From contig JALGZR010000017.1 of NCBI GenBank assembly GCA_025774805.1, positions 41,693 through 61,237 on the forward strand: a stretch of DNA of 19,545 bases, in the 5' to 3' direction. Below are positions 3,781-19,545 of the stretch, one piece after another (the stretch's first letter is position 1; every line of letters begins with the position of its first letter). A program made the position numbers and the translations under genes. The notes beneath the pieces are model-generated. The model was not told the DNA's origin. It saw only the letters and a program-made list of their open reading frames with translations, and searched no databases. Origin of the DNA: a bacterium (GTDB lineage Bacteria; ARS69).

Positions 3781-6300
3781 TTGCGCATCGATCGCGTCGA
3801 CATCGAGGGATGCGGAACCCAGTCCGGCGGCTTCCGGTTCCCTCGCGATGGGCTCGGTCTTTGGGCTTCCGGCAACCGCAGCGGAAAGAGCGGTCTCGTG
3901 CGCCTGCTGGCCGATGCGTTCTACGGTCCTCGGGAACGGCACACGACTCCGGGCGGGTGGATCATGGTCCGCCTCCGGCTGGACGACGGTGCGGCCCGCA
4001 TCGTCGCCCGGGATCTCGCGACGGGCGCCGTGCAGGTCACCGACGAGACCGGCAACGACATCACCCCCCAGTACCGGGACCCCGGCGAGACGGATCAGCT
4101 GGGGCGGAGGCTCTTCGAGCTGGACCGCCACCAGTTCGAGGAGATCTCGACCGTCTCCCTGGACGGACTCCGGCGCACGGTCGGAAACGGGACGCTGATC
4201 CACCTGCTCCACCGGGGGCGCATTCCGGGGCCTCCGTCCGAGGAAGAGACCCCCGACCCGGCCCCGCCCTCCCGAGGACCGTCGCTCTCGACGCCGGAAG
4301 AGGAGGCCGGGCCGGAGCCGGAGTCGGACTCCGAAGAGCCGCTCCACATCTTCCGCTCCCCGAGCGAGGAAATGGAATACGTTCATGCTGGCTTCCTGGC
4401 GACCCGGTCCCCGTCGCCGACCGATCCCGCCTCTCTCCCGGTGTCCTCCCCGGCCCATCTCCCCGCGGAAGTCGCGCCGCATCTCGGGTCGGACGTGGCT
4501 CTCTCGGACACGTCTCTCACGATCGACGAGGTCGACGACTTCCGACTCGACGACACGACGCGTCTGCGGAGGTTGAAGGCGGCGCTCGACACGCTCGACG
4601 TCCGCCTCGAACAGAAGGCGAAGGCGCTGCAGGCCCACTCGGAACGGCTCGGGGCGTTCCGCTCCGAGGGCGACCGCCTGGCCATGCTGACCGGGGCCGA
4701 GCCGAAGGACGTCGAGAATCTCGAAATGCTCCTCGACGTGATGAGCACCGCGCAGGAGAGGCGCGATCGAGTCCGGGTCCGGGAACAGCACTTCCGAAGG
4801 GAGCTCTCCGAACGCCAGAGGAATCCCGAGAGGGTCCTGCGACTCTGTAGCCGGTTCGAACGTCTCTCCGAAGAGGATCTCCGGTTCCTGAACAGCTACC
4901 GCCGGGAGGAGACGGTCCGCCGGGGCAACCAGGCCCTCGTCCGAAGCGAGAGCCGTCTCGACGAGAGCCGGATCGAGGCGATCCTCCAAACGCGGACCCG
5001 GGAATCCCGTCCGGCGGTGGTCCCTCTCGGAGTCGCCATCTTCGGCCTCCTGACCTCGACCGTTCTCCACCTCTTCCCGGGTCTGCAGCTCGTCGCGATC
5101 GGTTCGCTCGTGGTCGGCTTCGCCGGCGCGGTGATCGGTGCGGCCATTCTCTGGCGCGCGAAGCGAACGGGTGAGAACGACCGAAACGTCCTCTTCACGA
5201 GCCTGCGTAAGAAGTCCGAGCAGCTCGAGGAGATCGAGCAGGAGAGTCGGGTCGCCCGCCAGCGCATGGCGGAAGTGGCGGGGAAGCTCGGCATCGAGGA
5301 TCCCGAGCAGCTTCCCGATCTGTACGAGGAGTGGGAAGCCGCCCGAGAGGACGGCCGTGAGCTCGAGAGGTTCGCCCGGCAGGGCCGGGAGATCGACGCG
5401 GAGATCGTCAAGGTCCGCGAGAAGCTCGGATCGTTCATCGTAGAGAACGGTCGGGGCCAGGATCCGACGACGATGACGGCCGAGGAGCTCGAGGCGATGC
5501 GCCGCGACTACGTCCGGTTCTTCGAGATTCAGCGGGAGCTGAAGGCGGCCGAGGAGGAGGCGAGTGGCCTGGAGTCCGATCTCGCCCAGGTCGAGGTGGA
5601 ACGGGCGGGCTTTCGCGACCGGATCGGCGATCTTCTCGGGATCGCGGGATTGGAACCGGGCGAGGATCTCGACGAGGCGATCGAGCGCCACGCGATGAGA
5701 CGCCCCGCCGGGATCCCGAATGGGGAAACCGCCCCGGACGGGGCGGGAGAGGCGCCGGAGCGCGAGACGTTGACGGCCGACGCCGGCATGGCGTCTCTCC
5801 GTCCGGAGCCGGAAGGGGACGCGAGCTGGGTTCCGGCGGTCTCCGCCCGGGCCGAGGCGATCCTTCGCCGCTTCCTGCCCGAGGCGAGGGAATTGGAGAT
5901 CGACCTCGACCTCTCCCCCAGCGTCCGCCTCGACGCGCGGGGACCGCGGCTCTCCTTCCCCGAGCTCGCCGTATCGCTCTCCGAGGGAACGCTCGATCAG
6001 GTTTGTCTCGCATTGCGTCTTGCGATCGTGGAAACTCTGTCCGCTTCCGGGGAGAGAGTTCCCGTCCTGCTCGACGATCCTCTCGTCCGGTGCGACGATC
6101 AAGGGTGCGTCCAGGCCATGGAGTTCCTGGTGACGGATCTGTCCACCCGGGGCCAGGCGGTGCTCCTGACCTGCCACGAGCTGAGGGCAAGATGGTTCCT
6201 TCACCAGTTCCCGCAGCACCAGGCACGGCTGATCGAGATCGCCGACCCCGCGAGGCGGGATCCCTCCTCCGACTCCTCCGTCGACTGTCGATCCTCCTGA
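3781..6300 (+). CDS. YhaN/SMC-like ATPase with coiled coils and two membrane segments
   Basis: This 839-residue protein is built like an SMC/Rad50-type ABC ATPase split by a coiled coil. A Walker A motif, GNRSGKSG, has its lysine at residue 36. A region rich in Pro, Ser and acidic residues (about 145-250) follows, then a coiled coil to about 405. Two hydrophobic segments (about 412-458, VVPLGVAIFGLLTSTVLHLF and LVAIGSLVVGFAGAVIGAAI) come next, then a second coiled coil to about 640. The C-terminal lobe has the ABC signature LSEGTLDQ (residues 733-740), Walker B VLLDDP (D765, D766) and an H-loop histidine at 799. This is the YhaN arrangement, although it is shorter than I recall for Bacillus YhaN. 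It should bind and hydrolyse ATP while anchored in the inner membrane. YhaN-type proteins are often paired with an SbcD-like nuclease, which is absent here. It is the first gene of the operon ending in addA. Confidence 0.85.
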   Translation: MRIDRVDIEGCGTQSGGFRFPRDGLGLWASGNRSGKSGLVRLLADAFYGPRERHTTPGGWIMVRLRLDDGAARIVARDLATGAVQVTDETGNDITPQYRDPGETDQLGRRLFELDRHQFEEISTVSLDGLRRTVGNGTLIHLLHRGRIPGPPSEEETPDPAPPSRGPSLSTPEEEAGPEPESDSEEPLHIFRSPSEEMEYVHAGFLATRSPSPTDPASLPVSSPAHLPAEVAPHLGSDVALSDTSLTIDEVDDFRLDDTTRLRRLKAALDTLDVRLEQKAKALQAHSERLGAFRSEGDRLAMLTGAEPKDVENLEMLLDVMSTAQERRDRVRVREQHFRRELSERQRNPERVLRLCSRFERLSEEDLRFLNSYRREETVRRGNQALVRSESRLDESRIEAILQTRTRESRPAVVPLGVAIFGLLTSTVLHLFPGLQLVAIGSLVVGFAGAVIGAAILWRAKRTGENDRNVLFTSLRKKSEQLEEIEQESRVARQRMAEVAGKLGIEDPEQLPDLYEEWEAAREDGRELERFARQGREIDAEIVKVREKLGSFIVENGRGQDPTTMTAEELEAMRRDYVRFFEIQRELKAAEEEASGLESDLAQVEVERAGFRDRIGDLLGIAGLEPGEDLDEAIERHAMRRPAGIPNGETAPDGAGEAPERETLTADAGMASLRPEPEGDASWVPAVSARAEAILRRFLPEARELEIDLDLSPSVRLDARGPRLSFPELAVSLSEGTLDQVCLALRLAIVETLSASGERVPVLLDDPLVRCDDQGCVQAMEFLVTDLSTRGQAVLLTCHELRARWFLHQFPQHQARLIEIADPARRDPSSDSSVDCRSS

Positions 6301-7583
6301 TCGGAGCGGTCGGGGTGACCGCTCCGGGAACGGTCCGAGCCGGCGATCCGCTCCCCGGTGCGGGGATCACGTGGCACCGCGCCTTCCTGGCCGGAACCTG
6401 GGACCAAAACCCGCCCGTCACCGAGCCCCTGACGATCAATGGAAACCGAAACGTCAATCTCTTCCTGGTCCTGGAGGGGGAGCGGGACGAGCTCCCGGTC
6501 TATTGCGCGAGCACCCCGCGTCTGCGGGTCAAAGGTCGAGAGATTCCCGATCGTATGATCCTGCGACCGAGGGACTGCGGACTCGAACGCGCGGAGATCC
6601 GGTGGAGCGAGCTTCGGCCCACTCCCGACGCCCGGGACTGGCGGATGAAGCCCCTGCCCGCGGGCAACCACAAGTGGAAGCTCTCCTTTCAGGCGTTCCC
6701 CGGCGACGATGTCGAGAACGGCTTCCCCGAGTGGGCGGGCACGGTGCGCTATGCCGCCACGATCGGGTTGGTGGAACCGGGATCCGGACCCAGCTTCCTC
6801 GGGTCGGACGGCGCGTCCCGACGGGCGGGATGGGAGAACCCGGAGAGCGCACCCGGATACCGGGTCACGCGGTCGACGGGCCTCACGCTGGACGGCTATG
6901 CGGCCGAGTTCGCCCGGCTCCCGGTCGTCGAGCGGGCCACGGCCGCCCACGTGCGGGAAAGGGTGTCCTGCGAGCCCGTCGACCTCGTGCTCGGCTCCTA
7001 CGCCGCGATGCGGGGGAAGCCGCTCCCGGGACCGCGGCGGGCGAGCCTGGACGGTGAGGAGTGGTCGTGGGTATTCCGGCCCGTTTACGAGGAGATCCGC
7101 CGGCGGGTGGACGGGACCCATCCGTTCGTCGCCGCGAAAGGGCGCGGGGTGCCTTGGCGGCCTCGGGGGACGGACCACGAGGAGCGGGTGCGAAGAGGGG
7201 ACGTCCTCCTCCTCGACGGAACGCCCACCATCGTCTCGGGCGACGACGGCGACGGCTGGCTCGACAACGAGGACACGGTGGTTCTCGTGCGGGACGGCGC
7301 CGTGGTTCAGGGAACGCTGCTCGGCGTTCCGGGTGAGAAGGTCACCCTCCTTCGGCCCCGGGACTTTTTCCCGTTGGGTCGGTCCATGCTGCGCGCCGGC
7401 TACGGCCCCCTGAAGCCGACGATCTACTTCGGCTCCGACCTCGAGCAGGCGCTCTCCGAGTTTCAGAGAGACCGCGAGCTCCCGATCACCGGACGTCCCG
7501 ACGAGGCCACGCTCGACGCCCTCGGGTCCTTCCTGTCCCGCCTCGACGCGGTCGACGCGGAGACGGAATCCGACGAGAAGTGA
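6192..7583 (+). CDS. Exported protein with C-terminal peptidoglycan-binding-like domain
   Basis: The chosen ATG at 6192 has a GAGGG site five bases upstream. It keeps a signal peptide with a long n-region: basic LLRLLRR, hydrophobic LSILLIGAVGVTA, and cleavage after VRA near residue 50. The gene therefore overlaps the SMC-like gene by 109 bases in another frame. The mature 413 residues have no family I can name with confidence. The last 50 (EQALSEFQRDRELPITGRPDEATLDAL, here written in part: FQRDRELPITGRPDEAT) match the PG_binding_1 pattern of FQ, a TGRxD turn and a final AL. A central stretch with C260 (VSCEPVDLVL), GKPLP and later RRGDVLLLDG faintly recalls an NlpC/P60 layout, but the usual catalytic histidine context is missing. 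It likely acts in the periplasm or at the cell wall. It is linked by a GTGA overlap to the addB-like gene. Confidence 0.78.
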   Translation: MVPSPVPAAPGTADRDRRPREAGSLLRLLRRLSILLIGAVGVTAPGTVRAGDPLPGAGITWHRAFLAGTWDQNPPVTEPLTINGNRNVNLFLVLEGERDELPVYCASTPRLRVKGREIPDRMILRPRDCGLERAEIRWSELRPTPDARDWRMKPLPAGNHKWKLSFQAFPGDDVENGFPEWAGTVRYAATIGLVEPGSGPSFLGSDGASRRAGWENPESAPGYRVTRSTGLTLDGYAAEFARLPVVERATAAHVRERVSCEPVDLVLGSYAAMRGKPLPGPRRASLDGEEWSWVFRPVYEEIRRRVDGTHPFVAAKGRGVPWRPRGTDHEERVRRGDVLLLDGTPTIVSGDDGDGWLDNEDTVVLVRDGAVVQGTLLGVPGEKVTLLRPRDFFPLGRSMLRAGYGPLKPTIYFGSDLEQALSEFQRDRELPITGRPDEATLDALGSFLSRLDAVDAETESDEK

Positions 7584-10500
7584 GGGCACTCGGCGCTCCG
7601 GACTTCCCGACGCTTCGAGAGGCCCTCCGTGTCGCGATCGAACGCGAGCGCGCCGGGGACCCTCTGCGACCGATCACCGTGCTCACCCGCGATGACCTCT
7701 CCCGGGACGAGACGAGACGGATTCTCGCGATCCGAACGGGGGGGTTCCTCGGGATCGACCTGGTCTCGTTTCCGACCTGGATCCGGAGAACCGCGACGCC
7801 CGTGGTCACCGCGACCGGGGGTCGAGGGCTGCCGGATCCCGGCTGGGAGCGGCTCATCGCTCGTCTTCTGGCGGAGCGCGAATCGCGGAGGACGAAGGGC
7901 CGGTCCGCTTTCCTCCTGACCGCGTCGGGATCCGCGGCCGGTCTGGCTCGCGCCGTGGCCTCGTCGCTGGCGGAGCTCCGTCGGGGGGGCTTCACGTCCG
8001 GAGTCCTGACCGCCGGCGGGTCGCCGGCGCGCGATCCCCTCCGACGGGAACTGGTCGAGCTGCTCGGACTCGCGGAGCGCGAGCTGGTCGAGACGAACCG
8101 GTACGACGTCGGGCGGGAGGAGGAGGCGGCCGCCGAAGCCCTGCGATCCCCGAGGGCGCGCGCGGACCGGGGCTCCCCCCTCGTCCTGTTCGGATTCCAC
8201 GACTTGACTCCGCGCCAGCGCCGGGTGGTCGAGGCGGCCGCCATCCGGCGTCCGGTCACGCTCCTCGTCCCCGGCCCGGGCGGGCCGGGGGAGGAGGCAT
8301 CGACCTCGCTTCTCGATTGGGTGCGGGATCGGGGCGGGGAGCTCGAGCTCCGGGAATCGGAGACCCGGCCCCGCGTGACCGTGAGCGCCGGACTTTTCGA
8401 GGAGCCCGCGATCGCGGATCCCGGCCCGGAAGCGCTGGAGCTCGTGACGTACCCGGGGCCGGCGGCGGAGGTGCGGGGAATCGCCCGGCGGATCGCGCGG
8501 GAGATCGCCGAGTTCGACCGCGGGCTCGACGACTTCCTGATCACCGTTTCCCGGGAGGGGCCCTCCCCCCTTCTCTTCCGGCGGGTGTTCGCGAAGGCCC
8601 GGATTCCGCTGCGCGACCGGGCCGGGATCTCCGCGCTCCGCACCGAGGGGGGGCGACGCGCGCTCGCGCTGGCGCGAGCGATGGCGGCCGGTCCGGGAGG
8701 TCGCGCCGGTGAAGCGCTCGACTTCCTCACCTCGAGCCCGAGCGCGGCGACCGGGGAGCCGGAGGGCGCGACATCGAAAGACCACACGTCGGCCCTCCGC
8801 GCCGCGCGGAGCTGGTCGGAGGCGGCGGAACGGTTCCGGGAGGCGTACACCGCCCTCCTCGGTGAGGACGGGGCGACCAACGGGGCGGCCGGCGTGGGGC
8901 TGCCGTCGGAGGTGGAGCGCGCGCTCGACGCACTGGAGAGCACGAACGGAACCCGACCGTGCCGCGCGCGCGAGTTCGCGTCGGCTCTGATCGCGTCCCT
9001 CGCGTCGGTGGTCAGCCGGCACGCGGTCTCCGACGGACCCGGGTCCGCCGCCGTTCTGTTGGTCCGGATCGATCAGGCGAGGGGACTGTCCCGGCCGGTC
9101 GTTTTCCACACCGGCTTCGTGGAGGGAGCGGTGCCGGGCGCTCCGCGCGAGGACCCGCTCCTTCCCGACCGGTACCGGGAGGCCCTGAACACGGCGACCG
9201 AGCATACGGGTCATCATCTGCCGTTGCGATGGGGAGCGCGATCCGAGCGCGTGCTCCTCACCCGGTTCGCGCTCGAGGCGGGCGAAGAGAAGACGATACT
9301 CTCCTGGTCGGTCCGGGCGCAGGCGGGAGGGGCGCGTCGCAACCCCGCGGGTCTGCTCCTCGATCTGGTGTCGGCGCGCGCCGGGACGTCGCTCGACGCC
9401 GAGGATCCCCGCTTTCTCGAGGCGGCCCCGGCCCCCGTCTCGGACGAGGCGCGCGCGCGACCCGCCGACGCCACCGATCTCGATCTCGCGCTCCTCTCCG
9501 GAGCCCGGGCCCCCGGGCAGGAGGAGCTCGCCGTCCTTCTTTCCCAGCCCAGGTCGCGGCATCTCGTGAGCGCCCTCCGCGCGGCGGAGGCGCGTTGGTC
9601 CGAGCGCCGACTCGGACCGTGGGACGGGGTGCTCGAACGGGAGACCGCCGTGCGCGCGGCCTGGCGACGCGTCGATCCGGGACGGCGCGCCTGGAGTCCG
9701 ACCGCCCTGGAGGCGATGGCGAACTGCCCCTTCTCCTTCCTGGTCACCCGAATCCTGGAGCTCTCCCCCGCCGTCGATCCGGAGGACGACTTCGATGCGG
9801 CCGAGCGCGGAAGAATCTTCCACGAGCTGCACGAGCGTCTCTATCGCGGGCTGCTCGACGCGGAGCGACTCCCCCTCCGCGTCGAGTCCCTGCCCGACGT
9901 GCTGCGCCGACTCGACGCGCTCCTCGCCGAGAAGGAGAAGGCGCTCGCCGTCGCGCCCGGGGCCGCCCGCGTGCTCCGGCGTGCCACGCTCGCGGACCTT
10001 CGAGCGGATCTCGCGATCCTCCTCGCCCGTGACGCGCGGCGCCCCCCGGAGGGACGCGCCGTGCCCCGATGGTTCGAGCTCCCGTTCGGAGCCGAGGGGG
10101 ACGTCGCGGCGGCGCCGGCGTTCGACCTGGGAGACGGCCGACGGCTTCCGCTGCGCGGGCGCGCCGACCGGGTGGACCTCCGGGGCGACGGCGCCGTCGA
10201 CGTCATCGACCTGAAAACGGGAAGGCCGGCGGTGCGCGACGGGGAGATCACCGGCTCGGCCGGCGGAAAGGCGGTCGTCCACCTCCAGCTCCCGCTCTAT
10301 CTCACCGCGGTGGGCCGGGCCCTCGGTCGAGAGCCGGGATGCGCGCGCTACGACCACGTCACGGCGAAGGGCGGGTGGCGGTCGATCGAGTTCACGGCGG
10401 AGGACCTGGAGAGCCGACGCCCGCGCATCGAAGCGTTGCTGCGGCACGCCGTCGACCGGTGCCACCGGGGATGGTTTCCCTGCACCCCCGGCGACCGGTG

Positions 10501-10657
10501 CTGTCACCCGGAGCTGGCTCCGGCGTGCGGCCCGGCGGTCGCCCCCCGCTTCGCCCTCAAGATCGGCGATCCCGAGCTGGACGAGCACCTCGCCCTGCTG
10601 CGCGCGGGTGACGAGACCCCGGCGGCCGAGGAGAGATCCGAGGAGGCGCGACGGTGA
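7580..10657 (+). CDS. addB: AddB-like subunit of a helicase-nuclease (PD-(D/E)XK nuclease, likely Fe-S cluster)
   Basis: The GTG start at 7580 overlaps the previous stop as GTGA. The 1025-residue protein has an N-terminal helicase-like part (PITVLTRDDLSRDE, then SFPTWI) without a visible Walker A motif, as in inactivated-helicase AddB homologues. A VLLVRIDQARGL segment leads to VFHTGFVEGAVPG near residue 510. The C-terminal nuclease has RADRVD (D863, D866) and VIDLKTG (D877, K879), the PD-(D/E)XK core. Cysteines at 716 (MANCPFSF) and at 968, 974/975 and 983 resemble the one-plus-three arrangement that holds a 4Fe-4S cluster in AddB, though the spacing differs. With AddA it should resect double-strand DNA ends to feed RecA. 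The next gene, addA, starts on another GTGA overlap. Confidence 0.9.
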   Translation: MRALGAPDFPTLREALRVAIERERAGDPLRPITVLTRDDLSRDETRRILAIRTGGFLGIDLVSFPTWIRRTATPVVTATGGRGLPDPGWERLIARLLAERESRRTKGRSAFLLTASGSAAGLARAVASSLAELRRGGFTSGVLTAGGSPARDPLRRELVELLGLAERELVETNRYDVGREEEAAAEALRSPRARADRGSPLVLFGFHDLTPRQRRVVEAAAIRRPVTLLVPGPGGPGEEASTSLLDWVRDRGGELELRESETRPRVTVSAGLFEEPAIADPGPEALELVTYPGPAAEVRGIARRIAREIAEFDRGLDDFLITVSREGPSPLLFRRVFAKARIPLRDRAGISALRTEGGRRALALARAMAAGPGGRAGEALDFLTSSPSAATGEPEGATSKDHTSALRAARSWSEAAERFREAYTALLGEDGATNGAAGVGLPSEVERALDALESTNGTRPCRAREFASALIASLASVVSRHAVSDGPGSAAVLLVRIDQARGLSRPVVFHTGFVEGAVPGAPREDPLLPDRYREALNTATEHTGHHLPLRWGARSERVLLTRFALEAGEEKTILSWSVRAQAGGARRNPAGLLLDLVSARAGTSLDAEDPRFLEAAPAPVSDEARARPADATDLDLALLSGARAPGQEELAVLLSQPRSRHLVSALRAAEARWSERRLGPWDGVLERETAVRAAWRRVDPGRRAWSPTALEAMANCPFSFLVTRILELSPAVDPEDDFDAAERGRIFHELHERLYRGLLDAERLPLRVESLPDVLRRLDALLAEKEKALAVAPGAARVLRRATLADLRADLAILLARDARRPPEGRAVPRWFELPFGAEGDVAAAPAFDLGDGRRLPLRGRADRVDLRGDGAVDVIDLKTGRPAVRDGEITGSAGGKAVVHLQLPLYLTAVGRALGREPGCARYDHVTAKGGWRSIEFTAEDLESRRPRIEALLRHAVDRCHRGWFPCTPGDRCCHPELAPACGPAVAPRFALKIGDPELDEHLALLRAGDETPAAEERSEEARR

Positions 10658-13600
10658 GGGCGCCCGACCAGGACGTGCGCGATCGGATCGTCTCCGCCCG
10701 CGGAGTCAACCTCGCGGTGGAGGCGGGCGCGGGCACCGGAAAGACCACGCTCCTCGTCCATCGCGTACTCTCCCGGCTCGAGGGGGGCGTTCCCCTCCCC
10801 CGCCTCGCGATCATCACGTTCACCCGCAAGGCGGCGGCGGAGCTCACCGGCCGGATCCGGAAACGACTCGTCGAGCGCAAGCGGGACGGAGAGGGATGGG
10901 CGGCGCGCGGTCTCGAGGACTACGACCTCGCGGTCATCGGCACGACGGACTCGTTCTGCCGCACGATTCTCTCCGAGTTCCCGTTCGAGGCCGGCGTGCC
11001 GCCCGGCTTCGGAGTCGCGGACGAGGTCGCGCAGGTGGCGCTGCAGGACGAGGCCTGGCGCGACTTCCTCGCCTCCTCGGGAGACGACGCCCGCGACCTC
11101 CTTACGGCTCTGCGCGAGGCCGGGATCTCGTCCGACACGCTGCGGCAGGTCGCCGACGCGATTCTGTCGAATCGCGACCTGCCCGTCGCCGTCGCTCCCC
11201 CGCCCGATCTCCCGGATCTCGCCGGGGTCTTGGGCGGGTCCCTCGGCGAGGCGCTCTCCCTGCGTTCGCTCTGTCGGGATCCCTCCGACCGGCTTCGCCG
11301 GCACCTGGACGATCTGGAGGAGGAGCTCGCCCTCGCCCGGTCGGTCGGAGGAGCGGCGGGCGAGCGAGCGCTCCTGCGGCGGAGACGGGAGAGGCGTCGC
11401 TACACGAATAGGAGACACGGGCGACAGGACGCGTGGGGGGGGAAAGAGAACGTCGAAAGGGTCCGCCGGGCCCTCGAAGACGTCGAGTCGACGGTCGACG
11501 ACTTCCTCGAGAAGAGGGGCCTCCACCTCACCGCCGCGTACGCGCGGTGGATCGAGGGATACCGGCGCGAGTACGAAGCGCGCAAGCGGGAGCGCGGACT
11601 CCTCGACTTCCGGGACCTCGGGCTCGCGACGCGGGATCTCCTGCGAAGGGAGCCCCGGGTCCGGCGAATCGTGGCGGGGCGCTTCGACGAGATCCTGATG
11701 GACGAGGTGCAGGACACCGACCCGCTCCAAATGGAGATCGCCCTTCTTCTCTCCACCGCCGACGGGGACTCCCCCGATCCTCTCGAAGCGGCCCTCGTTC
11801 CGGGTCGACTCTTCCTCGTGGGGGATCCCAAGCAGTCGATCTATCGCTTTCGCCGGGCGGACATCGAGCTCTACGAGCGGGTGCGCGCGCACGTCGCTTC
11901 CTCGGGCGTGGCCGGGGGCGTCGAGGCGAACTTCCGGGCCCGTCCCGAGATCCTGCGCTTCGTGAACCACGTCTTCGCGGGGTGGATGGAGCCTCCTCCG
12001 GGGGAGTCGTGGCAGGCGCGCTACGTCGATCTCGTTCCCGGTCGCGAGGCCGCCGAACCGCCGGGCGATCCAGCCGTCACCCTGCTCCTGCCCGATCCCG
12101 CCCGGGAGGCGGAGATCCTCGCGAGGACCGGCTCGCCGCGCCTGCGCGCCGACGGACGGGCCGAGCTCGAGCGGGACGCGGTCGCGCGTGCCGTCCGCCG
12201 CGTCCTCGGGCTCGACGGATCCGGTCCGCCGCTTCCGGTCGTCGACCCGGGCACCGGACGGGAACGCCCCGCGGAGCCGGGGGACGTCGCCGTCCTCGTG
12301 CGGAAGATCGCGTGGGGCGATCGCCTTCTCGAGACGCTCCGTCGCGCCGGCGTTCCCGCCGCCGTGTCCGCCGGGAGGCGCTTCTACGCCAAGGAGGAGA
12401 TCCGCACCCTTCTCGCGCTCCTCGAGGCGGTGATCGATCCGGAGGATCGCCTCGCGCGCTTCGCCGCGCTGCGATCCCCGGCCTTCGGCATCCGTGACGA
12501 CGATCTCGTCCTCCACTTCCTGGAGGAGGCGGAGGAGGGTTCGGCGGAGGCCGGGGCCGTCGTGGACGCGGAGACGCGCCTCCGGAAGCTCGCCGAGGAG
12601 GCGCGCTCCCTCCCCGTTCCCGACTTTCTCGAACGGCTCACCGAGGAGACGTCGCTTCTCCCCGTCTTCGGGTTCCGTCCCGACGGCCGCGGGCGCGTGG
12701 AGTCGATTCGCCTCCTGCTCGAAGCGGCCGACTCGCTCGTCGACGCCGGGTTCGACACGCTGCCCTCCTTCGTCCGGTGGCTCCGCGGGCAGGCCGCCGC
12801 GAGCCGGACGGGCGGCCCCGGTGAGGAGGAGTCCGGAACGGAGTCGGCGGTTCAGATCCTCACGGTGCACAAGGCGAAGGGGCTGGAGTTTCCCGTCGTG
12901 ATCCTGGCCGATCTCGGAAGCGGCGCGGTGACCGACCGGAGGCTCGTGACCGACCGTGCGGCGAACCGGATCGACTTCCGTCTGTCGGCGGCGGAGCGCG
13001 TGATGACCTCGGGCTTCGAAGCGGCGGCACGATCGGAGGCCCGACGTCAGGCGGCCGAGGACGTCCGACTTCTCTACGTCGCGATGACGCGGGCCCGGGA
13101 TCGCCTGATCCTCTCGTGGGCGGCGAGCGATCGGGGCTACTTCGCGCGGGCGGGCGACGAGCCCTCCGTACTCGAGAGCCGGGTCGGCTGCACGGCGGGA
13201 GCCGCCCCCCCGGAGGGCTCCGGCCTCGGTCGGTGGGAGGCGGGGCGATGGCCACCGCTCGCGATCGGGGGCCGCCTTCACGCGCTGCGCCTCGACTCCC
13301 CCCCGCCTCCGGCGGGCCCGACGCCGGAGGACGCCTTCGAGCCGCTCCCGCGCGCCCGGCGACGCCGCCCGATCCTCCGGGCGACGGAGATCGGGGCCCG
13401 CTCGAAGGCGACGCCGGCCGGTCGGCCTCCGGACGAGGTCCCGGCGAGCCCCGGCCCGCGCCCGGTCAGCGAGCGCGGAACTCCATTGCCGGACAACGTT
13501 TTCGGAACTCTCGTTCACAAATTCCTCGAGATGTGGTCCCCGTCCTCGGGACAGACCGCGGAGGACGGGTTGCGGGAGGCGGCATCGGCGGTGGGCCTGG

Positions 13601-14046
13601 ATCCCGGCGCGATCCCCCTCGAGGGCGGGCTGGTCCGCACCGTCGATCGGATCCTGGGGGATCCCGCGCTGGCCCCGATTCGAGCCGGCCTGTCCGCGGG
13701 CTCCGAGGAGGGAACGACCGCCCGCCGCGTCCTGCGGGAGGTGCCCTTCCTGCTTCCCGCGGGGGTCGGGCTCGTCTCCGGCACCCTCGACGTCCTCCTG
13801 GAGGAGGCCGACGGCCGCCTCGTCGTGATCGACTACAAGACGGGACGCGGGGGAGGCCTTCCCGCCGATCGGGCGAAGGAGCGCTTCCGCACCCAGGCCG
13901 GTCTCTACGCCCTGGCGGTCACCCGGCAGACGGGCCGGCCGGTGGAGGAGGTGCGGTTTCTCTTCCTGGACCGGGATCCCGTCGAGGTGGGATCCTTCCG
14001 GCCGGATCAGGAGTTCCTAGAAGAAGCAAGACGGCGGATCGATTAG
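10654..14046 (+). CDS. addA: AddA-like UvrD-family helicase-nuclease subunit
   Basis: This 1130-residue protein starts with GTG at 10654, with GAGGAGG just upstream inside addB. All superfamily 1A helicase motifs are present: Walker A EAGAGTGKTT (K30), ITFTRKAAAEL, TTDSFC, Walker B MDEVQDTD (D350, E351), GDPKQSIYRFR from residue 390, EANFRARPEIL, TVHKAKGLEFP (H739) and YVAMTRARDR (R813). The C-terminal nuclease has GTLDVLLE (D1046) and VVIDYKTGRG (D1060, K1062). The protein should translocate 3' to 5' on single-stranded DNA and cut it, working with AddB in recombinational repair of double-strand breaks in the cytoplasm. AddA homologues are usually a little longer. Residues about 830-935 are Pro/Arg-rich and poorly conserved in appearance. 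It is the last gene of the operon; a structured repeat begins at its stop codon. Confidence 0.95.
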   Translation: MRAPDQDVRDRIVSARGVNLAVEAGAGTGKTTLLVHRVLSRLEGGVPLPRLAIITFTRKAAAELTGRIRKRLVERKRDGEGWAARGLEDYDLAVIGTTDSFCRTILSEFPFEAGVPPGFGVADEVAQVALQDEAWRDFLASSGDDARDLLTALREAGISSDTLRQVADAILSNRDLPVAVAPPPDLPDLAGVLGGSLGEALSLRSLCRDPSDRLRRHLDDLEEELALARSVGGAAGERALLRRRRERRRYTNRRHGRQDAWGGKENVERVRRALEDVESTVDDFLEKRGLHLTAAYARWIEGYRREYEARKRERGLLDFRDLGLATRDLLRREPRVRRIVAGRFDEILMDEVQDTDPLQMEIALLLSTADGDSPDPLEAALVPGRLFLVGDPKQSIYRFRRADIELYERVRAHVASSGVAGGVEANFRARPEILRFVNHVFAGWMEPPPGESWQARYVDLVPGREAAEPPGDPAVTLLLPDPAREAEILARTGSPRLRADGRAELERDAVARAVRRVLGLDGSGPPLPVVDPGTGRERPAEPGDVAVLVRKIAWGDRLLETLRRAGVPAAVSAGRRFYAKEEIRTLLALLEAVIDPEDRLARFAALRSPAFGIRDDDLVLHFLEEAEEGSAEAGAVVDAETRLRKLAEEARSLPVPDFLERLTEETSLLPVFGFRPDGRGRVESIRLLLEAADSLVDAGFDTLPSFVRWLRGQAAASRTGGPGEEESGTESAVQILTVHKAKGLEFPVVILADLGSGAVTDRRLVTDRAANRIDFRLSAAERVMTSGFEAAARSEARRQAAEDVRLLYVAMTRARDRLILSWAASDRGYFARAGDEPSVLESRVGCTAGAAPPEGSGLGRWEAGRWPPLAIGGRLHALRLDSPPPPAGPTPEDAFEPLPRARRRRPILRATEIGARSKATPAGRPPDEVPASPGPRPVSERGTPLPDNVFGTLVHKFLEMWSPSSGQTAEDGLREAASAVGLDPGAIPLEGGLVRTVDRILGDPALAPIRAGLSAGSEEGTTARRVLREVPFLLPAGVGLVSGTLDVLLEEADGRLVVIDYKTGRGGGLPADRAKERFRTQAGLYALAVTRQTGRPVEEVRFLFLDRDPVEVGSFRPDQEFLEEARRRID

Positions 14047-14106
14047 CCTGCGTCTCTCACCAGGCTCGTGGCGAGGCCGCAGCAGAGCGTGGTGAGAGAC
14101 GCAGGC
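14046..14106 (+). repeat. Structured intergenic element, copy 1 (17-bp perfect arms)
   Basis: The arms 14046-14062 and 14090-14106 are perfectly complementary (GCCTGCGTCTCTCACCA and its reverse complement). A 27-base loop between them holds a small inner hairpin (GGCTCG, TGG, CGAG, CC) followed by GCCGCAGCAGAGC. The same outline and the same 13-base 3' loop segment recur at 15723-15787. The left arm begins at the last base of the addA stop. No T-run follows, so it is not a textbook terminator, although it may protect or end the addA transcript. Confidence 0.85.
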
Positions 14107-14112
14107 CAGGCG

Positions 14113-14141
14113 GGAATCGGTCATGCGCCGACCCCGATTCC
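14113..14141 (+). promoter_or_regulatory. Inverted repeat upstream of the ECF sigma gene
   Basis: GGAATCGG (14113-14120) and CCGATTCC (14134-14141) form an 8-bp inverted repeat with a 13-base spacer in the short leader of the sigma-factor gene. It could be an operator or part of the promoter. A GGAAT-type -35 is suggestive of an ECF promoter, but no -10 of suitable spacing is evident. The ribosome binding site GGGAG precedes the ATG at 14163. Confidence 0.3.
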
Positions 14142-14162
14142 GTATCCCTTCCGGGAGAGCGC

Positions 14163-14777
14163 ATGTCGCGCGAATCGACCGGGCCGGCCGAGCCCTCCGC
14201 TCCCCTCGACGAGGCCACGCTGCGTCGGGTTCGGGAGGGGGACGAGGCGGCCATGAACCGGTTCTTCGACGCGTTCTTCGATCGGGTCTTCGCGTACGTC
14301 ACCCGCCTCGTGCGGGATCGGACGTTGGCCGAAGACCTGACGCAGGACTCGTTCGTGAGGATGCACGGAGCCCTCGGCCGTCTCGACCCGGCTCGGGACC
14401 CGACCCCGTGGGTGTTCACGGTCGTGACGAACACGGTCCGGGACCACTGGCGGTCGCGCGCCCACCGGGCGACGATGCGCCAGAGCTCCCTGGAGGACGT
14501 GGGGGAACTTCCGTCCGACGACGGGCGGGGAGCTCCCGACCGGGCCCTGGAGCGGAAGGAGTCCGCCCGGGCCGTGCGGGCGGCGATGGGTCGCCTGTCC
14601 GACGCGGACCGGGAGATCCTGCTCCTGAGGAACTTCCGGAGCCTCACGACCGAGGAGATCGTCGAGATCCTGGGGATCCGGCCCGAGGCGGTTCGCCAGC
14701 GGTACTCCCGCGCGGTGCGGCGTCTCGGCCGAGCCTACCGGGAGCTCCGGGGGGGACAGGATCCGGTGTCCGCCTGA
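14163..14777 (+). CDS. ECF (extracytoplasmic function) RNA polymerase sigma factor
   Basis: This 204-residue protein has the two domains of group IV sigma factors. Sigma-2 spans about residues 22-100, with region 2.2 DLTQDSFVRMH and region 2.3/2.4 WVFTVVTNTVRDHWRSRAH. Sigma-4 spans about 135-192 and includes LSDADREILLLRNF and the helix-turn-helix around LTTEEIVEILGIRPEAVRQR. The linker is acidic and Pro/Gly-containing. The ATG was chosen for its GGGAG site eight bases upstream; the open frame extends far upstream but only as an overlap with addA. It directs RNA polymerase to a specific promoter set. The FecR-like gene begins 16 bases downstream, which makes that protein the likely partner controlling its activity. 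The regulon cannot be read from this window. Confidence 0.93.
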   Translation: MSRESTGPAEPSAPLDEATLRRVREGDEAAMNRFFDAFFDRVFAYVTRLVRDRTLAEDLTQDSFVRMHGALGRLDPARDPTPWVFTVVTNTVRDHWRSRAHRATMRQSSLEDVGELPSDDGRGAPDRALERKESARAVRAAMGRLSDADREILLLRNFRSLTTEEIVEILGIRPEAVRQRYSRAVRRLGRAYRELRGGQDPVSA

Positions 14778-14793: not shown

Positions 14794-15627
14794 ATGCGTC
14801 ACGGAGATCTCGAGCTGACGGACGACGAGCGGGAGGCCCTCTCGCTCGTGGGCTCCACTCCCGTTCCCGCGGCGTCCGCGGACGCGCGAGAGCGGGCGCG
14901 CGTCGCCTTTCTGACCGGTCGTCGCCTCGGGAGGCCGGAGGCGCCGGCCGTCGCATTCGGGGAGAGAGAGCGCGAGTCTCCCCCGCGAGGGCCCGCCGTT
15001 TCTCCTCGCCGGGCGATCGGGGGACTCGCCCTGGCCGCGGGCGTGGCCGGGTTGATCTTCCTGGGCGGTCTGCCTTCCGAGAGCTGGAGGTTCGTCGAGT
15101 CGGAGGGGAGCGCGAACGCGCGCCTCGACGGCGAGGCGGCTCGGGCGGGAGCCCCCTTCCGTTCGGGAGTGGTCGAGGCCGGACCCGACGAGAGGCTCGA
15201 CGTCGAGCTCGGGGAGACGATCCGCATCTGCCTCCTTCCCGGAAGCCGGGCCCGACTCCCGTCGGGACCGGGGCGCTGGTTCGGACGAACCCGCGCGCTG
15301 TCGCTCGAGCGGGGAGAGCTCTTCGCCTCCTCGGGAGACCGCGAGCTGGGATTCGAGCTCGCCGTGCGGACCCGGGAGGCCTCCGTCCACCTGGTCGGCA
15401 CGACGTTCGCCGTCCGGCGCAACGACCTCGGCACCTGCATCTGTCTCTATCGGGGCGAGGTCACCGTCCTCTCCGCCGACGGCTCCGACCCGATCCGCCT
15501 GTCCCCCGACCGGCGGGTCCAGGTCTACTCGGACGGCACCGCGCCCACGTTCCATCCCATCGACGCCCCGGCGCGGGAGCTCTTGACCGAGCTCCACGCG
15601 GCGGGCCGCGCGCTCGTCCGGCATTGA
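14794..15627 (+). CDS. FecR-domain membrane protein, likely regulator of the adjacent ECF sigma factor
   Basis: The 277-residue protein has a cytoplasmic N-terminus of about 70 residues, one membrane segment (about 74-93, AIGGLALAAGVAGLIFLGGL) and a C-terminal beta-rich FecR-type domain. The domain is marked by LDVELGETIRICLLPGSRA, LSLERGELFAS, VGTTFAVRR and LYRGEVTVLS. The N-terminus has no HxxxCxxC zinc motif, so it is not a ZAS-type anti-sigma. FecR proteins relay an envelope signal to a sigma factor; they usually pair with a TonB-dependent receptor carrying a signalling domain, but none is seen here. An unusual CIC pair sits at residues 215-217. A GTGAGG site precedes the ATG. It is co-transcribed with the sigma gene. 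Confidence 0.85.
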   Translation: MRHGDLELTDDEREALSLVGSTPVPAASADARERARVAFLTGRRLGRPEAPAVAFGERERESPPRGPAVSPRRAIGGLALAAGVAGLIFLGGLPSESWRFVESEGSANARLDGEAARAGAPFRSGVVEAGPDERLDVELGETIRICLLPGSRARLPSGPGRWFGRTRALSLERGELFASSGDRELGFELAVRTREASVHLVGTTFAVRRNDLGTCICLYRGEVTVLSADGSDPIRLSPDRRVQVYSDGTAPTFHPIDAPARELLTELHAAGRALVRH

Positions 15628-15817: not shown

Positions 15818-16723
15818 ATGAATGAGGCCAGCGCCGAGAGGCTGCGACACGTCGTACGGGAGAGATACGGGGAGATCGCTCGCGGAGACCGAGCTTCCAC
15901 CGACCGGGCGGGAGCCGCGGCGGCGAGCTCGGGGTGCGGTGGAACCCGGGAGGGGCCGGGCGCCGAGGGGAACGAGACGGGAGCCGAGACCGCGGTGCAG
16001 ACGTGCTGCTCTCCTCCGGCGGAGAGCCGGACCGCGAACATCGGCGCGGGATACTCGGCCGAGGAGCTCGCGAGCGTCCCCGAGGGGTCGGAGCTCGGTC
16101 TGGGCTGCGGCAACCCGTCCCAGGCCGCCGTGCCGAGCCGAGGCGAGACCGTTCTCGATCTGGGCAGCGGAGGCGGAGTGGACTGCTTCCTGGCCGCCCG
16201 GCAGGTCGGGGAGACGGGACGCGTGATCGGCGTCGACATGACGCCGGACATGATCGAGCGCGCCCGCGCGAACGCGCGTAGGGCGGGGGTCGAGAACGTC
16301 GAGTTCCGCCTCGGGGAGATCGAGCATCTGCCGGTCGCGGACGGCTCCGTCGACGTCATTCTCTCGAACTGCGTGGTCAACCTCTCCACCGACAAGGAGG
16401 CCGTGTACCGCGAGGCGTTTCGCGTTCTGAAGCCGGGGGGGAGGGTGGCCATCTCCGATATCGTCGCCCGCGGGGAGATCCCGGCCGCGATCCGGGAGGA
16501 CGTCGAACTCTACGCGGGGTGCATCGCGGGGGCGATCACCGCGGAGGAAAACGAGAGCTTCCTGAAAGAGGCCGGCTTCGAGGACGTGCGCATCCGCAGC
16601 CGCGGCGGGAAGGCCGACGTCGACTGCGGATGTGGATGTGAGGGCGAATCGGCGCCGAAGGCCACGGTCCGCATCGAGGACTGGGTCGACTCGGTCCTGA
16701 TCGAGGCGCGCAAGCCGAGCTGA
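15818..16723 (+). CDS. arsM: Arsenite S-adenosylmethionine methyltransferase ArsM
   Basis: The 301-residue protein methylates As(III) with S-adenosylmethionine in the cytoplasm, which detoxifies arsenic. The SAM-binding fold shows VLDLGSGGGVDCF (residues 112-124) and IGVDMTPDMIERA. The ArsM hallmarks GYSAEELASVP, GLGCGNP (C97), SNCVVNLSTDK (C185) and YAGCIAGA (C235) are all present. C185 and C235 are 50 residues apart, as are the essential cysteines of the characterised algal ArsM; C97 probably matches its third. Extra cysteines lie at 40, 63 and 64 in a low-complexity N-terminal stretch. A CGCGC cluster lies at 270-274. AGGAGGG sits five bases before the ATG. The gene has its own promoter and converges on the response-regulator gene. 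Confidence 0.95.
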   Translation: MNEASAERLRHVVRERYGEIARGDRASTDRAGAAAASSGCGGTREGPGAEGNETGAETAVQTCCSPPAESRTANIGAGYSAEELASVPEGSELGLGCGNPSQAAVPSRGETVLDLGSGGGVDCFLAARQVGETGRVIGVDMTPDMIERARANARRAGVENVEFRLGEIEHLPVADGSVDVILSNCVVNLSTDKEAVYREAFRVLKPGGRVAISDIVARGEIPAAIREDVELYAGCIAGAITAEENESFLKEAGFEDVRIRSRGGKADVDCGCGCEGESAPKATVRIEDWVDSVLIEARKPS

Positions 16724-16731
16724 GGACAGGG

Positions 16732-16767
16732 GTGACCGGGCGGGGTCTCGAAGGCGCCCCCGGTCAC
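16732..16767. terminator. Shared hairpin between convergent arsM and response-regulator genes
   Basis: GTGACCGGG (16732-16740) and CCCGGTCAC (16759-16767) form a perfect 9-bp stem with an 18-base loop. It lies nine bases after the arsM stop and overlaps the last codons of the opposing response-regulator gene. The position between convergent genes suggests bidirectional termination. There is no T-run on either side, so efficiency is uncertain. Confidence 0.5.
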
Positions 16768-18245
16768 TCCCGATCGAGCCCGAACTTCCGGGCGCGGTAC
16801 TGCATCGTCTTGTACGTGAGTCCGAGCCGTTTCGCGGCTTCGCTCAGGTTGCCGCGGGACCGCCGGATCGCCTCGGCCAACAATCGGCGCTCGATCTCGG
16901 GAAGCGAGACCGCGCCGGCCGCGAGGAGACCTTCGGGGCGAAGCGCGCCGGTCCGAACGGCCTCGTCCCCGCGTCGCGGGTCGTCCGGATCGCGCGCCGG
17001 CTCCGCCTTCCCGGGCGCGCCGGCCACCGGGTCGCCGAGGTCCCGGACGATCGAGGGGGGAAGATCCCCCAGACCGAGCGGCTCTCCCTCGGAGAGCACG
17101 ACCATGCGCTCCATCAGGTTCTCGAGCTCGCGCACGTTGCCCGGAAACCGGTAGGCCGCGAGGAAGCCACGCAGATCGTCGCCGATCTCCGGCGGGTCGG
17201 TACCGGTCCGCTCCGCGGCGCGATCTCGGAATCGCTCGGCCAGGAGCAACACGTCGTCCCCCCGATCGCGCAACGGGGGCATCTCGATCTCGACCACGTT
17301 GAGCCGGTGGTAGAGGTCCTCCCGGAAGTGCGCGGCCGCGATCTGCTCGCGGAGGTCCTGATTCGTGGCGGCGATCACGCGGAGCTCGACCTTGCGACCC
17401 TCTCCCCCGCCCACCCGCTCGACGATGCGATCCTCCAGAACGCGCAGGAGCTTCGCCTGAAGGACCCTCGGCATCGATCCGATCTCGTCCAGAAAGAGCG
17501 TACCGCCGTGGGCCTGCGAGAAGCGGCCGACCCGCGCGGCCGCCGCGCTCGTGAACGCCCCCCGCTCGTGACCGAACAGCTCGCTCTCCGCCAGGGCCTC
17601 CGGAATCGCCGCGCAGTTCACCGCCACGAAGGGCCCGGCGGCCGCCGGTCCCATGAAGTGGATCCGGCGCGCGGCGAGCTCCTTGCCCGTTCCGCTCTCG
17701 CCGGTGAGGAGCACGTCCGAGCCCCCGTCGGCCGCCCGGTCGAGCAGCCGCAGCAGAGTGCGCACCGCCTCGCTCTCTCCGAGGATTCCCTCCGCACTCG
17801 CCTCGGCGAGGCGCCGCTTGAGCGCCCGGTTCTCGCGCTCGAGGCGTCGCCGTACCGCCGCGCGCTCGACGCGTTGGATCAGCTCCTCCTTCGCGAAGGG
17901 CTTTTGGAGATAGTCGAACGCCCCGTCCCGCATCGCATCGACGGCGGACGACACCGTCGCGTAGGCGGTCATCAGGATGACGAGGAGATCGGGCTGTCGC
18001 TCGAGAGCCGCGCGCAGGAGCTCGTGACCGTCCATGCCGGGCATCCGAAGGTCGGTCAGCAGCAGCTCCGCCGGACGCTCGTCCAGACGCGCCAGTGCCG
18101 AGGCCCCGTCGGCGTGCTCGGACACGCGGTGTCCCTCGTCCCGGAGGATGTCGGCGAGAATCTCCCGCTGCCGCGGCTCGTCGTCCACGACGAGGACGTC
18201 CAGTCCGGGACCGCGCGTGCGCTTCACCGCTCGCTCGGTGGCCAC
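16764..18245 (-). CDS. NtrC-family sigma-54-dependent response regulator
   Basis: The 493-residue protein has three parts. The receiver domain (about 14-130) has acidic D21/D22, phospho-acceptor D65 in TDLRMPGMDG, T93 and K115. The AAA+ domain (about 153-385) has Walker A GESGTGKE (K188), the sigma-54 contact loop GAFTSA (229-234), Walker B LFLDEIG and FPGNVRELENL. A C-terminal Fis-type helix-turn-helix (about 455-493) includes NLSEAAKRLGLTYKTMQYR. When phosphorylated it should oligomerise and remodel RNA polymerase holding sigma-54 at enhancer-controlled promoters. The contact loop departs from the usual GAFTGA by one residue. The start is GTG with GGGAGGAG about nine bases upstream. It lies 23 bases after the kinase gene and is surely its partner; the stimulus is unknown. 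Confidence 0.95.
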   Translation of the reverse strand: MATERAVKRTRGPGLDVLVVDDEPRQREILADILRDEGHRVSEHADGASALARLDERPAELLLTDLRMPGMDGHELLRAALERQPDLLVILMTAYATVSSAVDAMRDGAFDYLQKPFAKEELIQRVERAAVRRRLERENRALKRRLAEASAEGILGESEAVRTLLRLLDRAADGGSDVLLTGESGTGKELAARRIHFMGPAAAGPFVAVNCAAIPEALAESELFGHERGAFTSAAAARVGRFSQAHGGTLFLDEIGSMPRVLQAKLLRVLEDRIVERVGGGEGRKVELRVIAATNQDLREQIAAAHFREDLYHRLNVVEIEMPPLRDRGDDVLLLAERFRDRAAERTGTDPPEIGDDLRGFLAAYRFPGNVRELENLMERMVVLSEGEPLGLGDLPPSIVRDLGDPVAGAPGKAEPARDPDDPRRGDEAVRTGALRPEGLLAAGAVSLPEIERRLLAEAIRRSRGNLSEAAKRLGLTYKTMQYRARKFGLDRE

Positions 18246-18268
18246 TCGACTCCGCTCCTCCCCGGCGA

Positions 18269-19545
18269 TCAGGACGGAGGCCGAAGCTCTCCGCTCTTCT
18301 CTTCGGGATGAAAGGGCAACCAGACCCGGACCACGGTTCCGCCGCCCGGCTCGCTCTCGGCGGAGACGTGACCGCCATGGCGTTCGACGATCGAGTGCAC
18401 GAGGCTCAGTCCGAGACCCGCACCCTCGCCCCGCCCCGAGAAGAAGGGCTCCCAGATGTGCGGGAGGGCCTCCGGCTCGATCCCTTCCCCCCGGTCGGCC
18501 ACCGTGACCATGACCCCCTCTCCCTCGCGACGGGCGCTCACGCGAATCGTGCTCCCCGGGGGCGCGGCCTGCAAGGCGTTCGAGAGGAGGTTGTTCCAGA
18601 CCGTCGGAAGCCGCGCGGGATCGGCGGCCACCGGCAGCGGCGAATCGAAATCGCGCGCGATCGTCACGTCGCGATCCCGCGCCTCGGGATCGAACAGCTC
18701 CAGAGCGGCCCCCAGACTCTCGGACACGTCGAGCTCCTCGCGGGCGAGGTCTCCCGACCGGGAGAGATCGAGGAACGTCGACACGAGGCGCTCGAGTCGC
18801 CCGAGCTCCGAGGTGACGCTGGCGACATAGCGGTCGAAACGTCGCCGCTCCTCCGTGCCGGCCGGGGGAGCGCCCTTCCCGCGCAGCTGCTCCAGGGTAA
18901 GCAGCATCGCGTTCAGGGGATTGCGAACCTCGTGCGCCACGCCCGCCGCGAGTTGCCCGACCGTCGCCAGCCGCTCGGCCGAGGCGAGGCGCTGCTCCAT
19001 CTCCCGCGTCTCCCGCAATCGGGTCACCATGTCGTTGAAGGATGCGGTGAGGCGTCCGATCTCGTCCGGGCGCCGGGGCTCGACCTGTACGTCGAGGTCG
19101 CCGGAGACGACGCGACCGAACGAGTCCTCGAGCGTCCGGATCGGTCGCGTGAACTGGACGGCGACCAGCACCGCCCCGGTGGCTCCGACGCCGAGGAGGG
19201 CCGCGAGCCAGAGTCCGCTCCGCTGCTTCGCGCGCTCGAGCTCTCCGGAGATCTCGGAGACGGGGTAGACGAGCTGGATGTGTCGTCCCCCCTCCTCTCC
19301 CCCACCCGGAACGGGCACGTTGATCTTGAGGAGATCGACGACGTTCGGACCCTCCGTCGCGTGCGGACCGGTGCGGAGCAGATCCTCGGCGCTCTCGCCG
19401 CCCTCGCCGAGGTAGACGATCTGCACCGTGCAGGAGTCGGGGAGCGGTCGCCCGAGGAGCGTCCCGGCCTCCGCCCCGACCGCGACGTGCTCCCGGCGTA
19501 GGAGCTCGGTCTTCTTCCCGTTCCCGCCGTCCTCGCCGATGCGAA
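18269..19545 (-). CDS. Membrane sensor histidine kinase, N-terminus outside window
   Basis: The frame is open to the right edge, so the sensor region is incomplete; 424 complete codons are present. From the edge inward there is an extracytoplasmic part ending HIQLVYPVSEISGELERAK, a membrane segment (LWLAALLGVGATGAVLVAVQ), then a HAMP linker (FTRPIRTLEDSF to DEIGRLTASFNDM). The dimerisation domain has the H-box AAGVAHEVRNPLNAML, with its histidine codon at 18932-18934. The ATP-binding domain follows with NNLLSNALQAA, VADRGEGIEP, WEPFFSGRGEGAGLGLSLV and GGGTVVRVWLP. It should autophosphorylate on that histidine and pass phosphate to the downstream NtrC-type regulator. The H-box sequence and partner resemble NtrB/ZraS-type kinases. 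An internal GTG at 19426 is probably not the true start because coding character continues beyond it. Confidence 0.93.
   Translation of the reverse strand, partial: RIGEDGGNGKKTELLRREHVAVGAEAGTLLGRPLPDSCTVQIVYLGEGGESAEDLLRTGPHATEGPNVVDLLKINVPVPGGGEEGGRHIQLVYPVSEISGELERAKQRSGLWLAALLGVGATGAVLVAVQFTRPIRTLEDSFGRVVSGDLDVQVEPRRPDEIGRLTASFNDMVTRLRETREMEQRLASAERLATVGQLAAGVAHEVRNPLNAMLLTLEQLRGKGAPPAGTEERRRFDRYVASVTSELGRLERLVSTFLDLSRSGDLAREELDVSESLGAALELFDPEARDRDVTIARDFDSPLPVAADPARLPTVWNNLLSNALQAAPPGSTIRVSARREGEGVMVTVADRGEGIEPEALPHIWEPFFSGRGEGAGLGLSLVHSIVERHGGHVSAESEPGGGTVVRVWLPFHPEEKSGELRPPS

Follow-up and report, generated by a model that had tools for sequence, protein, structure and literature searches.

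Four consecutive genes in a bacterial genome (G000), encoding a Rad50-type membrane ATPase, a predicted secreted protein with a PG_binding_1 domain (here PGB), AddB, and AddA, are read here, with confidence slightly above even, as an operon for the repair of DNA double-strand ends into which an orphan Rad50-type ATPase was recruited, PGB being linked to the repair enzymes by expression and not by contact. Judged from gene order and gene junctions, PGB-addBA is a conserved, translationally coupled trait of the lineage, and the complete ATPase-PGB-addB-addA order is, as far as could be seen, unique to G000. What the evidence so far bears out is this layout and its conservation. The window, meaning the whole stretch of DNA analysed, comprises 19,545 nucleotides (G000:C87:41693-61237) and was compared with four sister genomes (G001-G004), which together with G000 make up a set of five from the lineage (phylum), and with a collection of 290 genomes drawn mostly from other phyla.

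Layout and gene products

All four genes lie on the plus strand and are joined by overlaps. The ATPase reading frame (3781..6300, 839 aa) begins with TTG, preceded by GGAGG, and the PGB frame (6192..7583, 463 aa) begins inside it with ATG, with 109 nt (6192..6300) read in two different frames and the Shine-Dalgarno-like GAGGG of PGB placed within the ATPase gene. The addB (7580..10657, 1025 aa) and addA (10654..14046, 1130 aa) genes both start with GTG, the latter with a Shine-Dalgarno-like GGAGG upstream, and each overlaps the end of the preceding gene by the four nucleotides GTGA (7580..7583 and 10654..10657). GC content by codon position, at 0.83-0.87 for third and 0.47-0.57 for second positions, follows the normal coding pattern here in all four genes. 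The gene identities, four-gene layout, and tight coupling described in the initial annotation are all borne out by the reading frames, by the overlaps of 109, 4, and 4 nt, and by Pfam and profile matches, and we infer that the four genes are transcribed as one operon.

AddB carries a PDDEXK_1 domain (115.8 bits) with the nuclease motif VIDLKTG and a C-terminal cysteine cluster, CCHPELAPAC, and its gene adjoins addA, whose product combines UvrD N and C domains with a PDDEXK_1 domain bearing the nuclease motif VIDYKTG. The pair is a divergent AddAB, since neither protein reaches its NCBIfam equivalog cut-off; AddA scored 308.8 against a cut-off of 707.65, and AddB also scored under the addB equivalog cut-offs.

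PGB is composed of a signal-peptide-like N-terminus, a lineage-restricted middle, and a C-terminal PG_binding_1 domain at aa 401-444, which at 41.1 bits against a Pfam cut-off of 23 confirms the tail originally proposed for this protein and is also present in the copies from G001 and G003. PGB is thus predicted to be exported or periplasmic and wall-binding-like. An AlphaFold model built from a two-sequence alignment had a pLDDT of 30 and was set aside.

Directly 3′ of addA on the plus strand, an open reading frame at 13116-14777 encodes an ECF sigma factor in its C-terminal part (approximately 14200-14777), followed by a FecR-domain protein (14794-15627, plus strand); the two resemble a sigma/anti-sigma pair and possibly belong to the same transcription unit as addA. 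Further downstream are an arsenite methyltransferase, ArsM (15818-16723, plus strand, 336.3 bits against an NCBIfam cut-off of 263), and an adjacent NtrC-type sigma-54 response regulator and HAMP/HisKA histidine kinase (16764-19543, minus strand). The neighbours recognised in the window are these genes and an aminotransferase, with no defence genes among them, and PADLOC returned only generic UvrD-type matches for AddA and weak ones for AddB and the ATPase. A defence-system reading was dropped on both grounds, and the initial suggestion that the locus handles incoming DNA found no backing either, with neither uptake nor defence genes recognised in the window. A scan for LexA-like GAACN4GTTC sites performed no better than chance, and Rfam returned no match.

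Conservation in sister genomes

The PGB-addB-addA trio is present in three of the five lineage genomes (G000, G001, and G003), which represent three genera, and was found in no other phylum searched. The 290 genomes were also covered with an AddB profile. The PGB-addB junction is a 4-nt overlap in all three, reading GTGA in G000 and TTGA in both G001 and G003, as is the addB-addA junction, reading GTGA in G000 and G001 and ATGA in G003. Because both overlaps 3′ of PGB recur in two sister genera, they are not a chance feature of the window contig. The reading of PGB-addBA as a lineage trait follows from the restriction of full-length PGB to these genomes, which gave the only full-length matches of a PGB profile among the 290; proteins of other phyla match it solely or chiefly through the PG_binding_1 tail. 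An alignment scan over contigs of 84,980 species recovered only the G003 genome again (Gemmatimonadetes bacterium HKST-UBA01), and plasmids gave no match to PGB. One of these proteins, a LysM/PG_binding-like protein in G233, adjoins a VgrG-like gene (names read by eye).

The two remaining sister genomes lack the trio. G002 has an addB fragment that is not preceded by PGB, and in G004, which also lacks PGB, addBA is distant (29-31% identity). In G003, a second, distant addB, approximately 31% identical to that of the window, was found beside the PGB-linked one (locus L005, 1742-5056, contig G003:C357); as this genome is 67% complete, contamination is possible.

The ATPase shows a different distribution. 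In G001, estimated to be 100% complete, no ATPase gene lies upstream of PGB and a divergent DUF481 gene occupies the place instead; in G003, PGB itself is cut by the contig end. BLAST with the ATPase returned nothing from the four sister genomes, and a family profile found no close member there, its one weak match in G001 being the ATPase gene beside that genome's SbcD. Such a profile search can miss divergent members, since a second ATPase of G000 itself, on contig C170, was not listed by the sister-genome profile search. The absence from G001 at this spot and the lack of a close family member in the sister genomes are the basis for regarding the four-gene order as unique to G000. The adjacency proposed initially therefore divides in two, with PGB-addBA upheld in G001 and G003 and the ATPase failing to follow.

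The ATPase family and its missing partner

Profile comparison establishes the window ATPase as a YhaN/SbcE-type (Rad50-like) ABC ATPase; we take SbcEF to be the YhaN/YhaO pair, with SbcE corresponding to YhaN. Against a profile of 12 relatives from which it had been left out, it scored 206 bits, compared with 18 when reversed and no more than 8.4 in any of 200 block shuffles, and its N- and C-terminal ATPase heads each match separately, as does the middle. With the window protein included, the best PDB matches of the family profile are Rad50. The match of the protein to Pfam AAA_27 (15.4 bits) is below the cut-off of 22. Recognisable motifs are NRSGKS (aa 32-37), LSEGTLDQ (733), VLLDD (762), and TCHE (797). 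A two-helix membrane hairpin at about aa 411-458 interrupts the coiled coil midway, in line with the membrane ATPase described in the initial annotation. Its hydrophobic windows (aa 410-461) align with those of relatives, and its helices are separated by approximately five residues, leaving almost no periplasmic segment.

Over aligned columns, the protein shares approximately 20% identity with its relatives, and it has no close kin. It is shorter than they are, and its first half contains a long low-complexity stretch rich in proline, serine, and glutamate. Serine replaces the first glycine of Walker A, a glycine also absent from the relatives L044-L046 and L049. A tree places the window ATPase in one clade with that of G059, with support of 0.98. 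An origin as a paralog of the C170 ATPase of G000 was not supported, as the window protein groups with proteins from other phyla.

The membrane form of this ATPase is not unusual: a transmembrane stretch lies at the same place in the coiled coil of 15 of the first 20 relatives examined, making the membrane form the family norm. The peculiarity of the window ATPase is its orphan state. Family matches were found in 33 of the 290 genomes, G000 included, and neighbourhoods were read for all 32 others, among which 29 loci are not cut by a contig end. A gene for an Mre11/SbcD-like metallophosphoesterase adjoins the ATPase gene in 28 of these informative loci, whereas none was matched in the window (MPP profile) or in its flanks (Pfam). 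The one exception among the 29, a YhaN/Rad50-like ATPase with no metallophosphoesterase nearby, is at L109 (8034-10559, G196:C3). G000 encodes other pairs of an Mre11-like protein and an ATPase on contigs C170 and C76, and these could supply a nuclease. The C170 ATPase (L082, 3918-8785) is a second YhaN-like protein, with two transmembrane stretches and a long, uncharacterised C-terminal extension, and its gene overlaps that of the metallophosphoesterase. Searches of viral contigs with the ATPase and with PGB returned no relatives, and phages yielded one weak match to the ATPase, at 14%.

Proposed role, alternatives, and known systems

In the proposed repair operon, AddB and AddA would form the usual AddAB helicase-nuclease and resect broken ends. 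By analogy, the ATPase heads would dimerise on ATP and hold or open DNA ends, or present them, at the inner membrane, the membrane hairpin occupying the place of the Rad50 hook. Because a gene for an Mre11/SbcD-type nuclease is missing from the locus, the ATPase would most likely either work with a metallophosphoesterase whose gene lies at another place in the genome or pass ends straight to AddAB. PGB, translated together with AddAB in this lineage, would act in the periplasm as a wall-binding-like protein; if exported as predicted it could not reach AddAB, and the ATPase has only approximately five residues between its helices, so the link is probably one of shared expression and not of physical contact. 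What the ATPase does at DNA ends, which partner it uses, and what PGB does are inferred. A Rad50-type ATPase that is separated from an Mre11-type nuclease and found with AddAB would let nature itself show whether an ATPase of this kind can work with a different nuclease, and the coupling of a conserved secreted PGB to addBA, an unexplained trait of the lineage, could point to the envelope and DNA repair being co-regulated.

The ATPase may instead be an incidental neighbour whose gene, in this genus, came to lie in front of a long-established PGB-addBA operon, with overlaps that reflect compact packing and no shared pathway, an explanation that is less probable and still deserves serious weight. 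Its absence beside addBA in G001, where the DUF481 gene holds the homologous place, and the lack of a close relative in the four sisters mean that the association of the ATPase with AddAB rests on one genome, and its low identity to relatives points the same way. However, coupling is suggested by the 109-nt overlap, in which PGB has its Shine-Dalgarno-like sequence within the coding region of the ATPase, and Rad50-type ATPases recur next to helicase-nucleases.

The envelope tether raised in the initial annotation, in which the ATPase, PGB, and AddAB would act as one system that brings either DNA ends or DNA entering the cell to the membrane and wall, is unlikely. The membrane hairpin, the predicted export of a PG_binding_1 protein, and the PGB-addBA coupling shared by three genera are all in its favour, yet with PGB predicted to be exported, AddAB to be cytoplasmic, and so short a loop between the ATPase helices, there is no obvious surface for contact; G001 retains PGB without the ATPase, and no genes for DNA uptake or defence were recognised in the window. 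It is likewise doubtful that, in this lineage, AddAB resection is coordinated with the envelope through PGB as a conserved, co-translated partner and through a membrane Rad50-type ATPase that no longer works with an Mre11-like nuclease and uses AddAB in its place. Decay of the ATPase as a relic that lost its Mre11-like partner could account for the missing gene, the reduced length, the low-complexity stretch, and the serine in Walker A, but it is very improbable given the intact GKS, LSEGT, Walker B, and TCHE histidine, an open reading frame with normal codon-position GC, and relatives (L044-L046 and L049) that share the loss of the first glycine.

The preferred reading, a repair operon with an acquired ATPase, has a precedent in Bacillus subtilis, where addB, addA, sbcD, and sbcC form a putative operon (PMC1533848); SMC-type ATPase genes grouped with Add genes are known. 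The addB-addA-sbcD-sbcC order resembles the window in grouping addB and addA with a Rad50-type ATPase gene. In B. subtilis, however, the ATPase is SbcC, accompanied by the nuclease SbcD and encoded downstream of addBA, whereas in the window a YhaN-type ATPase with a transmembrane hairpin is encoded upstream, with no sbcD gene and with the secreted PG_binding_1 gene between. The YhaO-YhaN/SbcEF pairs found in many phyla share with the window ATPase the Rad50-like heads, the coiled coil, and the membrane stretch in the middle, but come, in 28 of the 29 informative loci, with the adjacent Mre11-like gene that the window lacks. SbcEF has been implicated in double-strand break repair, in a role that is poorly characterised (PMC6452273).

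Helicase-nuclease genes adjoin only 2 of the 32 YhaN-like loci outside the window, which counts against the preferred reading. On contig C40 of G059, two genes that combine UvrD and PDDEXK domains are followed on one strand by an Mre11-like gene and a YhaN-like ATPase gene with two transmembrane stretches (L086, 145-6540, with L044, 7855-12011), giving a full set of clustered end-processing genes in a different phylum; in G140, one UvrD-nuclease gene accompanies an Mre11-like gene and the ATPase. Neither locus encodes AddBA, which was ruled out by Pfam content: the two G059 proteins each have helicase and nuclease domains and are therefore AdnAB-like, and G140 has a single UvrD-nuclease. The G059 cluster resembles the window in that end-resection helicase-nucleases adjoin a related membrane ATPase of the same clade, and differs in having AdnAB-like proteins in place of AddBA, an Mre11-like gene, and no PGB. 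A repair role for the window ATPase is plausible by analogy with these two loci and the one published operon, and a Rad50-type ATPase beside a helicase-nuclease is an already known theme.
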